Source of the DNA: Acidobacteriaceae bacterium
GTDB lineage: Bacteria; Acidobacteriota; Terriglobia; Terriglobales; Acidobacteriaceae
DNA length: 64,000 nt
Direction: 5' to 3'
Assembly: GCA_003134655.1 (NCBI GenBank)
Contig: PLBY01000155.1
Location: 12,358-76,357, forward strand
A model generated the notes under the pieces. The model was given only the letters and a program-made list of their open reading frames with translations. It did no database searches and was not told where the DNA came from. Every line of letters begins with the position of its first letter. Position 1 is the first letter of the stretch. Positions 45,181 through 47,787 of the stretch are shown here, one piece after another. Made by a program: the position numbers and the translations under genes.

Positions 45181-46827
45181 CTAAGCCCGGCCCCAGCCGC
45201 CGCCACCGGGAGTTTCAATCGCAATTCGTTCTCCCTTTCGCAGACGGGTGCTGAATTTCGCCGGCATCATCTCGACCGAACCGTCTTGACGGATGATGAA
45301 CGTCTTTCCGGGCGCGCCGTCTGCTCCTCCAGACAGTCCCCAAGGCCCCCGCGACCGTCGATCGGCCAATAAAGTCACGTCGCAGTCGGTGAGCACTTCG
45401 ATCTCACGAACGATCCCGTCGCCGCCGCGAAACTTCCCCTGTCCACCGCTCCCCGCCCGCAGCGAATACTGGCGCACGCGCAGCGGATACGCATACTCCA
45501 GCGCCTCCGCGGGAGTGTTCAGAGAATTCGTCATGTGCGTGTGCACGCCGGAGACGCCCGGCTTGCCAGGGCGGGCGCCCATGCCGCCGGCAATCGTCTC
45601 GTAGTAGGCGAAAGGCTCACCGGTGCGCGGATCGATACCGCCGATGGTCAGGTTATTCATGGTCCCCGAGGCCGCAGCGGGGATGCGATCCGGAATCGCC
45701 TGCTCCAGCGCCCGCAGCAAGGTGTCGACGATGCGTTGTGACGTTTCGACGTTTCCTCCGGCCACCGCGGCGGGAGGCCTAGCGTTCACGATGGTTCCTT
45801 CTGGAGCGATGACCTGGATCGGTCGCATCAGGCCGGCTGCCGCCGGAACGTCCTCCGTCAGCAGGCACCGAAATACGTAGAAGCACGCCGAGTAGGTGAT
45901 CGCAGCGACGGCGTTCACACTGCCCTCAACCTGGGGATCGCTGCCTGTGAAATCGACTGTGATCATCGGGAGCGCAGCGCGTCTTCGACGCGCGACCGGG
46001 TCGGAGACCCGGTCCCTCACGTTCCGGCGGATGGTGACCACGATCTTTACCGGGCGGTCGCTGATGCCGTCGCCATCCAAGAAGTCCTCTGCCCGATATT
46101 CGCCCGCCGGCACGCGCTGCAAGAAAGCGCGCATCAACTCCTCTGAATAGTCGAGAAGATCCCCCGTCGCGCGGCTGGCCCGCTCCAGGCCATAGCGGGA
46201 ACACACCTCGCGCAGGCGCTCGGCCCCCGTGTGGCAAGCTGCGATCTGTGCCCCCAGGTCGCCTTCGCGCTCCTCTGGAGTACGCACGTTGTTGAGCAGC
46301 AGGGCGAGCACATCTGGGTTCATTGCGCCGCCCCGCATCAGTTTCACCGGAGGGATGCGGACGCCCTCCTGGTAGATTTCGCGGCACAGCCCCATCGATC
46401 CAGGATAGGCCCCGCCCACGTCTGCATGGTGCGCCCGCGAAGCCACATAGAAATCAGGACTTGTGTGGGCGCGGGCGACTCGCCCGCGCAGGTGGCGACT
46501 CTCCACATACACGGGCGCGACCAGCGTGATGTCGGGCAGATGTGTCCCGCCGCGAAACGGATCATTCAGCATCACCACGTCCCCCGGTTCCATCGCGCCG
46601 GCATCAATCGCCGCCCGCACCGACATCGGCATCGACCCCAGATGTACGGGCATGTGGTCGCCCATGGCGATCACCTCACCCGTGCCATCGAACACCGCGC
46701 ACGAGTAATCGCGACGCTCCTTGATATTCGGAGAAAACGCGGTGCGCCGCAGGGCCGCGCCCATCTCCTCGGCAATGGAGTGGTACAGATTCTTGAAGAT
46801 TTCCAGTTCGACGGGATCGCGCCGCAT
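45181..46827 (-). CDS. Hydantoinase B/oxoprolinase-like subunit with in-frame hairpin insertions
   Basis: A 548-residue HyuB-type protein, ATP-dependent oxoprolinase/acetophenone carboxylase family. Motifs RRDYSCAVFDGTGEVIAMGD, GSMPMSVRAAIDA, GDVVMLNDPFRGGTHLPDIT and AGGNVETSQRIVDTLLRALE are clear. The hyuA partner is not adjacent in this window. Two insertions break the normal reading: about 46463-46509 (residues RHLRGRVARAHTSPD) and 45970-46025 (RRNVRDRVSDPVARRRRAAL); both are hairpin elements kept in frame, so the protein may still fold. ATG 46827 starts the family N-terminus; 46863 is an alternative. Substrate unknown. Confidence 0.85.
   Translation of the reverse strand: MRRDPVELEIFKNLYHSIAEEMGAALRRTAFSPNIKERRDYSCAVFDGTGEVIAMGDHMPVHLGSMPMSVRAAIDAGAMEPGDVVMLNDPFRGGTHLPDITLVAPVYVESRHLRGRVARAHTSPDFYVASRAHHADVGGAYPGSMGLCREIYQEGVRIPPVKLMRGGAMNPDVLALLLNNVRTPEEREGDLGAQIAACHTGAERLREVCSRYGLERASRATGDLLDYSEELMRAFLQRVPAGEYRAEDFLDGDGISDRPVKIVVTIRRNVRDRVSDPVARRRRAALPMITVDFTGSDPQVEGSVNAVAAITYSACFYVFRCLLTEDVPAAAGLMRPIQVIAPEGTIVNARPPAAVAGGNVETSQRIVDTLLRALEQAIPDRIPAAASGTMNNLTIGGIDPRTGEPFAYYETIAGGMGARPGKPGVSGVHTHMTNSLNTPAEALEYAYPLRVRQYSLRAGSGGQGKFRGGDGIVREIEVLTDCDVTLLADRRSRGPWGLSGGADGAPGKTFIIRQDGSVEMMPAKFSTRLRKGERIAIETPGGGGWGRA
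45977..46013. repeat. Two adjacent hairpins inside hydantoinase B
   Basis: Hairpin 1 is GCGCGTC/GACGCGC with loop TTC (45977-45993), hairpin 2 is ACCGGGTC/GACCCGGT with loop GGA (45995-46013). They encode a stretch rich in Arg (RRNVRDRVSD) that has no equivalent expected before TVDFTGSDP. Confidence 0.75.
46463..46509. repeat. TGTGG/CCACA hairpin element inside hydantoinase B
   Basis: Starts TGTGTGGG and ends CTCCACATA, with a central 9-bp stem GCGCGGGCG/CGCCCGCGC and 3-base loop. Translated in frame as an Arg/His-rich insert between the family segments APVYV and FYVASRAHHADVGG. Confidence 0.8.
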
Positions 46828-46872
46828 GAGGCGCAGTGTACTGGATTTGCTGGCAGACTGCATCGGCGGGAT

Positions 46873-47037: not shown

Positions 47038-47076
47038 TTGACACTTTATTAATACTGCCGCAATATCTTGTGATAT
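47038..47076 (+). promoter_or_regulatory. Promoter-like TTGACA and ATATC dyad
   Basis: The -35 word TTGACA is at 47038-47043. About 17-19 bases later lies AT-rich sequence (CAATATC) that could serve as -10. A perfect short dyad ATATC-TTGT-GATAT occupies 47063-47076 and overlaps the probable start-site region. This precedes the micro-ORF at 47175. Confidence 0.55.
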
Positions 47077-47174
47077 AGGACCTTCCCATACTACAAGTAG
47101 GGTTGGTCTTTCAAGTACAAGGGCCCGTAGTCAAGAAACCTTAACAAGGGAAAATCGTTCACGGAGGATCCTTC

Positions 47175-47213
47175 ATGGCAACGAAGAAGAAGGCAAAAAA
47201 GAAGAAACATTAA
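47175..47213 (+). CDS. 12-residue Lys-rich peptide (micro-ORF)
   Basis: ATG 47175 encodes MATKKKAKKKKH and stops at TAA. It is preceded by GGAGG at 47163-47167 with 7-base spacing, the best ribosome site in this part of the window, and by a TTGACA promoter-like word at 47038. A terminator-like hairpin follows at 47267-47300. Eight of 12 residues are Lys. It could be a leader peptide for attenuation of the MerR gene, a nucleic-acid-binding peptide, or a remnant. No family is known to me. Confidence 0.55.
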   Translation: MATKKKAKKKKH

Positions 47214-47266
47214 CCGTCAGCGAGGACATTCCTCGCTTACACACGATTTCTCACTGGCCTCTTAAG

Positions 47267-47300
47267 AGAAGCACCTCTTGAGGGGCTTTTCCTTTTTGTC
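47267..47300 (+). terminator. Intrinsic terminator candidate downstream of micro-ORF
   Basis: A hairpin AGCACCTCTTGAGGGGCT with a TTTTCCTTTTT tail lies 55-85 bases after the micro-ORF stop codon, and a second small hairpin CGAGGACATTCCTCG is at 47221-47235. It separates the micro-ORF from the MerR gene. Confidence 0.6.
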
Positions 47301-47382
47301 GGCCTCGAAATTCTCTTATCGCTCGGCGCACCATGTGTCACAATAGGCAGACCACGTGGCGTTTGCCGCCGTGAACGGAAAA

Positions 47383-47787
47383 ATGGCGCCCCGCAAGAAG
47401 AGTACGGCGAAGCACAAAGCGGATGAGATCCTCATCCCCGACAAACTTTATTTCCGCATCGGCGAAGTGGCCACCCTGTGCCATCTGCCGGCCTATGTGC
47501 TGCGTTTCTGGGAGTCCGAGTTCCCGCAACTGAAGCCGGTCAAGAGCAGCACCGGTCAGCGCATGTACCGCAAGCGCGACGTCGAGAGCGTGTTGCACAT
47601 CAAGCGACTGCTCTACGAGCAGGGATTCACCATCTCCGGCGCGCGCCAGCAACTGCGCAGCGAAAGCAAGACTGACAAGACGCAGACCGCCATCCCATTC
47701 CCGTCGCATTCCACGCCCGAGATTCAGCGCATCCGCCAGGGGCTGCGCGAGATTCTGAGCATGCTGTCGGCGCGCCGCACGGGATAG
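47383..47787 (+). CDS. MerR family transcriptional regulator
   Basis: A 134-residue regulator. The winged-helix MerR domain spans about 22-92: LYFRIGEVATLCHLPAYVLR, then FWESEFPQLKPVKSSTGQRM, YRKRDVESVLHIKRLLYEQG and FTISGARQQL. No effector domain follows beyond a short C-terminal helix IQRIRQGLREILSMLSARR. Such short MerR proteins in Acidobacteria and Deltaproteobacteria have unknown ligands. ATG 47383 is chosen; GTG 47356 would add 9 residues. Confidence 0.9.
   Translation: MAPRKKSTAKHKADEILIPDKLYFRIGEVATLCHLPAYVLRFWESEFPQLKPVKSSTGQRMYRKRDVESVLHIKRLLYEQGFTISGARQQLRSESKTDKTQTAIPFPSHSTPEIQRIRQGLREILSMLSARRTG

Follow-up and report, generated by a model that had tools for sequence, protein, structure and literature searches.

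Introduction

Among the closest described systems are RNAs with a second, peptide product; the SgrT peptide, for example, accompanies the SgrS RNA. SgrS/SgrT and VcdRP/VcdP combine a short structured transcript, a terminator and a small ORF, with loss of the ORF in some lineages. Attenuation leader peptides likewise consist of a short ORF followed by a terminator. Proteins of the bS22 and bL37 type are very small and basic, are mixtures of lysine and arginine, and have fixed contact residues. bS22 and bL37 themselves have been placed as extra proteins in cryo-EM maps of mycobacterial ribosomes (PMC6133939, from the available part of that paper). Histone H1-like proteins include Hc2 of Chlamydia (PF07382) and AlgP with its KPAA tail; according to the portion of the source available, the KPAA-repeat peptides of this protein show DNA binding in vitro, and AlgP is located on polyphosphate granules (PMC9239181).

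The locus described here lies in a window of 64,000 nt (the whole stretch of DNA that was analysed) from an Acidobacteriaceae bacterium (GCA_003134655.1, contig PLBY01000155.1). It is a predicted transcription unit for a 12-residue lysine-rich peptide, and units of its type, termed class A, have an unlinked sister type, termed class B. It shares the layout of SgrS/SgrT and VcdRP/VcdP, but it is without a known base-pairing target, occurs as two paralogous units per genome, and encodes a polycationic peptide that is shorter than VcdP (29 aa in the accessible part of that description). The likeness to attenuation leader peptides is limited, in that the downstream gene is inconstant and the peptide is selected in two unrelated contexts. 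With bS22 and bL37 it shares a very small size, basic character and lineage specificity; in contrast to them, its length and sequence are not fixed, lysine takes the place of the lysine/arginine mixture, and there is no evidence of ribosome binding. H1-like proteins are similar in Lys/Ala/Pro composition, in repeat-like length variation and, for the peptides counted, in the absence of acidic and aromatic residues, whereas the microprotein is a free peptide of 12–30 aa without a folded domain, is poor in arginine, has its own short transcript with a conserved leader, and scores below the Pfam cut-off. We interpret the locus as a single-gene unit that encodes a microprotein of 12 residues, belongs to a pair of paralogous units retained in much of the family, and would supply a polyanion-binding polycation; with binding and expression both inferred, we give this interpretation as a whole about an even chance of being correct.

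Organization of the Unit

The unit (47038–47297) comprises a promoter of the form TTGACA-N17-CAATAT, a structured leader, GGAGG, a 12-codon ORF, a hairpin and an intrinsic terminator (Table 1). An earlier note on this DNA had proposed such a complete transcription unit, coding only for a 12-residue lysine-rich peptide, and the features that it named are all found where it placed them (TTGACA at 47038, ATATC at 47063, GGAGG at 47163–47167, ATG at 47175 and the merR ATG at 47383); its hairpin with a T-rich tail by 47300 corresponds to a 13-pair stem (47256–47287) and the tail TTTCCTTTTT, which ends at 47297. The comparison by which the proposal could be checked, namely whether the Shine-Dalgarno sequence, frame and terminator are kept in relatives, shows all of them, and the stop codon as well, to be conserved. 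The proposal is strongly supported in this way, on comparative grounds and without transcript or ribosome data.

Table 1. Coordinates of the class A unit in the window and of its flanking genes.
Feature	Position	Strand	Basis
−35 element TTGACA	47038..47043	+	Sequence; TTGACA in 74/79 class A units passing the promoter-like filter
−10 element CAATAT, 17-nt spacer	47061..47066	+	CAATAT in 73/79 and spacer of 17 in 74/79 class A units
5' hairpin near the inferred transcript start (~47073)	47077..47110	+	Strand folding; 26–34/34 paired per position in same-genus alignment
Purine motif CAAGGGAAAAT upstream of the Shine-Dalgarno sequence, resembling class B AAGGGAGAATAG	47145..47155	+	AAGGGA(A/G)-type motif
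Shine-Dalgarno sequence GGAGG	47163..47167	+	Sequence, alignment
ORF encoding MATKKKAKKKKH, stop TAA	47175..47213	+	Sequence, alignment, pattern search, codon changes
Post-ORF hairpin GCGAG...CTCGC	47220..47236	+	Each of the 5 base pairs formed in 30–34/34
Intrinsic terminator with T-rich tail	47256..47297	+	33–34/34 paired at each of 12 positions
merR-family gene (context, outside the unit)	47383..47787	+	Pfam MerR_1, 1.3e-18
Divergent upstream hydantoinase B/oxoprolinase gene (context)	45181..46863	−	Pfam Hydantoinase_B, 1.3e-207

The promoter counts in Table 1 come from a search pattern that demanded a −35/−10-like pair, and they describe only the 79 units that pass this filter. CAATAT is a poor match to the −10 consensus, but in class A it is embedded in the strongly conserved stretch GCAATATCTTG; a generic promoter scan reported no promoter at all, that of class A included. 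The earlier note had also drawn attention to an ATATC dyad at 47063. Both halves, ATATC and GATAT, are present in the window, but the right half is not kept in the same-genus alignment, and a regulatory dyad was rejected on this ground; the left half is better explained as part of the −10 region.

The predicted RNA (47073–47297) folds better than its shuffled versions (z −3.35; 1 of 200 shuffles was equally good). In the same-genus alignment (n = 34) the terminator stem has undergone paired changes of the kinds U-A/C-G/U-G, A-U/G-U/G-C and G-C/A-U.

Selection on the Class A Peptide

By DNA similarity, the 301-bp region is found in 32 of 61 genomes, which are 32 of the 37 same-genus genomes (its own included) and none of the 24 from other genera. 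The 33 same-genus loci retrieved in this manner, for which the peptide was not used as a filter, include 32 that can be read (L044, with an N inside the ORF, was left out): 27 encode MATKKKAKKKKH and five encode MATKKKAKKKKKH, with one extra lysine, and all 32 have the form MATKKKAK(4-5)H. Parsimony on the tree of the element places 0, 0 and 34 sense-codon changes at codon positions 1, 2 and 3; by simple arithmetic, the probability that all 34 would fall on the third position if the positions were equal is about 6e-17. In an alignment of 30 loci, conservation is concentrated in islands, namely TTGACAC, GCAATATCTTG and CAAGGGAAAATCGTTCACGGAGG as well as the ORF, the hairpin behind it and the terminator.

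A larger set of 34 ORFs gives 2, 1 and 38 changes at the three positions with stop codons counted, but these ORFs were selected by peptide, and the absence of replacements among them is partly circular. In this set, most of the upstream 25-nt bins have 2.9–4.9 substitutions per site and the bin containing the Shine-Dalgarno sequence has 0.64. A 33-nt ORF pattern occurs in all 45 same-genus genomes (45/45), and the reversed pattern, as a control, gives no match. Programmed −1 frameshifting at the in-frame A-AAA-AAG was considered and rejected, as the heptamer is absent from several same-genus copies, e.g., GCAAAGAAAAAG or GCCAAGAAAAAG.

That the class A ORF is coding appears near certain from these comparisons, and with its own promoter, Shine-Dalgarno sequence, ORF and terminator conserved, the locus has the sequence features of a stand-alone microprotein gene, its translation in the cell being inferred. 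A chance ORF, or a decaying remnant within a conserved non-coding RNA, would have its very short length in its favor, together with the ease with which an A-rich purine tract gives lysine codons; this explanation is contradicted by the occurrence of the pattern in every same-genus genome and by the codon-position bias, which is also found in class B (see below), and can practically be dismissed.

A Second, Unlinked Unit

The genome of the window has its own class B copy (G000:C36:25417), which is unlinked to the class A unit and encodes a nearly identical peptide. In class B the promoter is TTGACTTCATTTTTCATTAACTCTATACA, the leader forms small hairpins, GGAAGGGAGAATAG is present, and the terminator is of the GGGGACGC...GCGTCCCC type; promoter, leader and terminator differ from those of class A. 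Copies of the MATKKKAKKKK pattern in the 45 same-genus genomes number two in 34, three in one (G029) and one in ten; G029 has two class A units (G029:C204 and G029:C240) plus the third copy of the ORF pattern.

Codon changes in class B were counted for 87 loci fetched by similarity, which gave 60 distinct loci with an ATG after the motif (six had no such ATG by the rule and the remainder were duplicates; L095 failed the position rule). The 25 independent closest pairs among them differ 30, 29 and 123 times at codon positions 1, 2 and 3, with 98 synonymous and 39 non-synonymous codons. Class B tolerates replacements, yet it is also read as protein to judge from these codon patterns. The class B ORF of L092 encodes MPAKKKAKKKKKH. 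Purifying selection on the amino acids is thus supported in both classes, and it is the third-position bias that shows selection on the peptide in each. Furthermore, the near-consensus promoter, the Shine-Dalgarno sequence and the leader hairpins of class B suggest good expression, although this is inferred in the absence of expression data.

A loose pattern gave no third copy in the genome of the window: its one further match is a 159-aa protein with a different leader and is not a member. A second AAGGGAGAATAG / TTCAAGGGAGAATAGTTCCAACGGAG stretch, similar to the class A leader, is present in the same genome (L435, ~1498–1523; G000:C140:29021), and no Lys ORF is visible after its TTCAAGGGAGAATAGTTCCAACGGAG stretch. 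Longer proteins with Lys/Ala or Lys/Ser repeats and an H1-like resemblance were also seen (L121, 132 aa; L417, 124 aa). The L121 repeat protein sits after AGGGAGAATG, as in class B, an arrangement that may be a clue to where the short peptides came from.

Distribution

Class B is found by DNA similarity in 149 of 200 genomes of the family, and a covariance model of its upstream part detects class B signals in 176 of the 200, representing 76 of 79 genera; at least 11 of these 176 genomes have a class B locus without a Lys-rich ORF. The consensus of this model (R1) pairs the promoter with the leader, which is impossible in an RNA, and it was used for searching only. The class A model (R2) matched 124 of the 200 family genomes with class B ORFs among the matches, and about 93 remain once class B positions are removed, counted by listed hits elsewhere than the class B hit. 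A Lys-rich ORF behind a Shine-Dalgarno sequence is present in all 20 of those that were fetched (E 1.2e-14 to 1.2e-6), in 19 by the first ORF rule and in one (L367) by a looser rule.

In a draw from the phylum, searched for class B with stricter filters, 35 of 297 genomes matched, 31 of which belong to family f1. Two matches from family f6 encode MKNATKKKAVAKKKAPAKKKAAAKKKK and MKYATKKKAAAKKKAAPKKKK with similar signals upstream, and the gene appears to extend to this second family of the class; the last two of the 35 are weak matches from other families. In another family (G054:C9 and G063:C15; L411 and L412), the contig with the class B-like peptide gene also has a merR match, about 2–3 kb away. 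Among named genomes, at least 118 stretches matched; the 80 listed all bear titles of Acidobacteriota-type organisms and include Edaphobacter, Granulicella and Occallatibacter isolates. In two of those listed, titled Candidatus Sulfotelmatobacter, the class B peptide is identical to the one common in the genus of the window.

Relation to merR

Neighborhoods were collected for 72 class A loci, of which 71 can be judged for merR (L030 is too short). In 58 of the 71, a same-strand merR gene follows the unit, at 95–304 nt from the stop codon of the ORF in 50 and at 467–805 nt in eight. In the remaining 13, roughly 1.5 kb of downstream sequence contains no merR; a hydantoinase gene is present at 45 of the 72. 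Neither merR nor the hydantoinase gene occurs at any of the 167 class B loci tested (0/167 for each), most of which comprise about 1.5 kb on each side and some up to 8 kb in all. A merR gene constantly downstream in the same direction is accordingly not a property of the family of units.

The earlier note had suggested that the peptide might be a leader which, together with an attenuator, controls merR. The frequent same-strand merR, mostly within the shorter range of distances and with the terminator in between, is what one would cite for this explanation. It is nevertheless disfavored, and in our estimation very improbable, considering the class A loci without merR, the eight with the longer distances, the near-identical class B peptide that is never beside merR, and a terminator stem that is maintained by paired changes; in addition, the consensus fold shows no upstream antiterminator pairing with the left arm of the terminator, although no dedicated search for one was made. 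Because the class A unit exists without merR, attenuation of merR is unlikely as a general function. The synteny between class A and merR is real all the same, and some link between them, or read-through regulation where merR is present, is not excluded. A leader responding to lysine starvation is disfavored as well, by argument only, as the downstream genes vary and the Ala/Pro/Thr spacing is unlike that of a codon-counting leader.

In some species, the interval from the terminator to merR contains the motif TGTGTCACAAT (47334–47344 in the window), which lies up to 700 nt downstream in 15 of the 72 class A loci; it is a possible operator or promoter for merR itself. In Proteobacteria, an IHF/HU gene can adjoin merR; we make no claim that the unit has taken the place of such a gene. 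When 30 merR loci were screened for small Lys-rich ORFs, class A-like ORFs were found in four loci of family f1 and a dissimilar 17-aa Lys-rich ORF in L388 (family f11), and no small Lys-rich ORF was found in the other 25, five of which are further f1 genomes. A 27-aa peptide containing leucine is encoded upstream of merR at L384 (genus g19).

Composition and Possible Function of the Peptide

Across the two classes, the peptides range from 12-mers to 30-aa KKAA/KKPA repeats and consist of lysine plus small residues with arginine rare. The 168 class B ORFs counted give 86 distinct peptides of 12–30 aa containing K (875), A (519), T (121), M (87), P (50), H (25), V (23), S (19) and G (19) and nothing else, with Arg and Asp/Glu at zero; from the 79 class A units come 27 peptides, 12–18 aa long and made of K, A, M, T, H, P and V plus three R. 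For the class B count, GGGAGAAT(A/G)G followed by ATGGC was required, duplicates and loci too near an end were excluded, and no ORF longer than 40 aa was found under the rule. Since the filters determined the initial residues, and most of these loci were fetched by searches covering the entire ORF or its first codons, the informative part is the ends of the peptides. Exceptions outside the filters are a terminal Arg in the 32-aa L173, the Leu of L384, and Asn or Tyr in the two f6 peptides.

This composition argues against a hydrophobic toxin or a sequence-specific binder and for a disordered polycation, since the peptides retain their charge and small side chains even though their length and residue order vary. 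We propose that the two units would supply a short, disordered lysine-rich polycation that may bind, independently of sequence, to polyanions (the chromosome, RNA or polyphosphate), and that would work like a detached, free-standing tail of the histone H1 type; a second function of the transcripts, at the level of the RNA, is possible in addition. Polyanion binding as the main job is inferred from composition without binding data, and we regard it as the most likely function, at about even odds. Within the genus, the 12-mer is frozen more tightly than a pure charge model needs, which counts against the polycation, as does the loss of the ORF with retention of the RNA signals at 12 or more class B loci from four genera, where a peptide from this locus is dispensable. 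The position of class A beside merR is also not explained by a bulk polycation.

A resemblance to H1-like proteins is only weakly reflected in profile searches. A 32-aa relative matches the Hc2 model with E 0.0014 and 19.2 bits against a Pfam cut-off of 40, three other relatives of 24–27 aa give no match, and the 12-mer falls below the length that the tool can handle; membership in PF07382 or the NCBIfam Hc2 family is not met. No family for the Lys-rich microprotein was found in Pfam or NCBIfam.

A lineage-specific tiny ribosomal or ribosome-associated protein, comparable to bS22 or bL37 of mycobacteria, would fit the good Shine-Dalgarno sequence and has a precedent in those ribosomes (PMC6133939, available part). 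The variation in length from 12 to 30 aa and the rarity of arginine make this explanation improbable, and a 23-aa member has no match among PDB sequences, a weak test with so short and simple a query.

A Possible Role of the RNA

Twelve class B loci, from genera g24 (seven), g22 (two), g30 (two) and g20 (one), have no Lys-rich ORF (L175–L178, L180 and L426–L432, at ~1505–1725 in the oriented locus). They retain TTGAC(A/T)-N17-TATA(C/T)(A/C), the GGGAG purine motif and a GC-rich terminator, with AGGCAA-rich stretches in most; the purine motif is GGGAGAATAG in seven, GGGAGAGTAG in three and only GGGAGCGCAG in two. A loose Lys-ORF pattern, searched in seven of the ORF-less genomes, found no other microprotein, its two matches being 509-aa proteins. 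In ORF-bearing class B, GGGAGAATAG is present in 57 of 60 distinct leader-matched loci with an ATG and is longer than a Shine-Dalgarno sequence requires; the invariance of GGGAGAAT in the class B alignment A1, by contrast, arises by construction, as the sequences were chosen with that motif. In class A, 65 of the 79 units have CAAGGGA(A/G)AA in their 5' leader, mostly 28–33 nt before the start codon; five have it only 3' of the ORF (four as CAAGGGAAAATAGTT), and nine lack it at both sites under the strict rule. It occurs in 2% of shuffled class A leaders. Loci that keep the RNA signals without the ORF are shown for class B only.

These motifs raise the prospect of a dual-function RNA, in which regulation would run through the conserved leader and purine motifs, with the peptide as an additional product, since lost from some lineages. 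Such an RNA would account for the ORF-less loci that keep promoter, motif and terminator, for a class B motif exceeding the need of a Shine-Dalgarno sequence, and for a class A motif that stands upstream of the true Shine-Dalgarno sequence or, at four loci, behind the ORF. However, the third-position bias means selection on the peptide in both classes, and the conservation of ORF-less loci is partly a matter of ascertainment, as the model that retrieved them scores the promoter and GGGAGAAT and several are near-identical relatives. An rsmE-like start lies just downstream of 11 of the 12 ORF-less loci and of only 11 of 164 ORF-bearing class B loci, and for this reason the remnants may have been co-opted, serving rsmE, or may be decaying. 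Two of the 12 also have a 30-codon basic ORF further down, and no target has been identified, no target prediction having been run. The dual-function RNA is plausible and remains a serious rival or addition to the microprotein, although we consider it rather unlikely.

Rfam offers no family for the unit: at E up to 1, the window between 42000 and 52000 gave only a tRNA and a sub-threshold hit elsewhere, and four loci searched at E up to 0.5 gave no family and one sub-threshold hit elsewhere. A more elaborate picture, which we hold to be possible but doubtful, would be a family-wide pair of dual-function transcripts that combine the purine motif CAAGGGARAAU with a lysine-rich, polyamine-like counter-ion of 12–30 residues for the nucleoid, ribosomes or polyphosphate, some lineages being RNA-only. 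Among the three alternatives of the earlier note, a real microprotein is the best supported by sequence comparison; a small RNA with a short frame is not favored over it, but survives as an addition, in that the class B signals outlast the frame in some genera.

Significance

A literature search, limited to titles and listings, found no title on such a microprotein family, and the available part of PMC5521070 contains no mention of Acidobacteria or lysine that we could find. The kind of gene is already known, as a microprotein with an H1-like composition and possibly as a dual-function RNA, and what is new, to the extent that literature titles show, is a version of only 12 residues that is encoded twice and spread through a family. 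Overall, the microprotein unit indicates that an entire bacterial family, here a large group of soil bacteria, can have such a tiny gene as a shared trait. With its 12 residues, it would be one of the shortest free-standing coding genes for which evolutionary comparison indicates that the peptide is under selection. In addition, the paralogs in most same-genus genomes, the series of peptides from 12 to 30 aa and the ORF-less lineages provide a natural comparison for separating the function of the peptide from that of the RNA.
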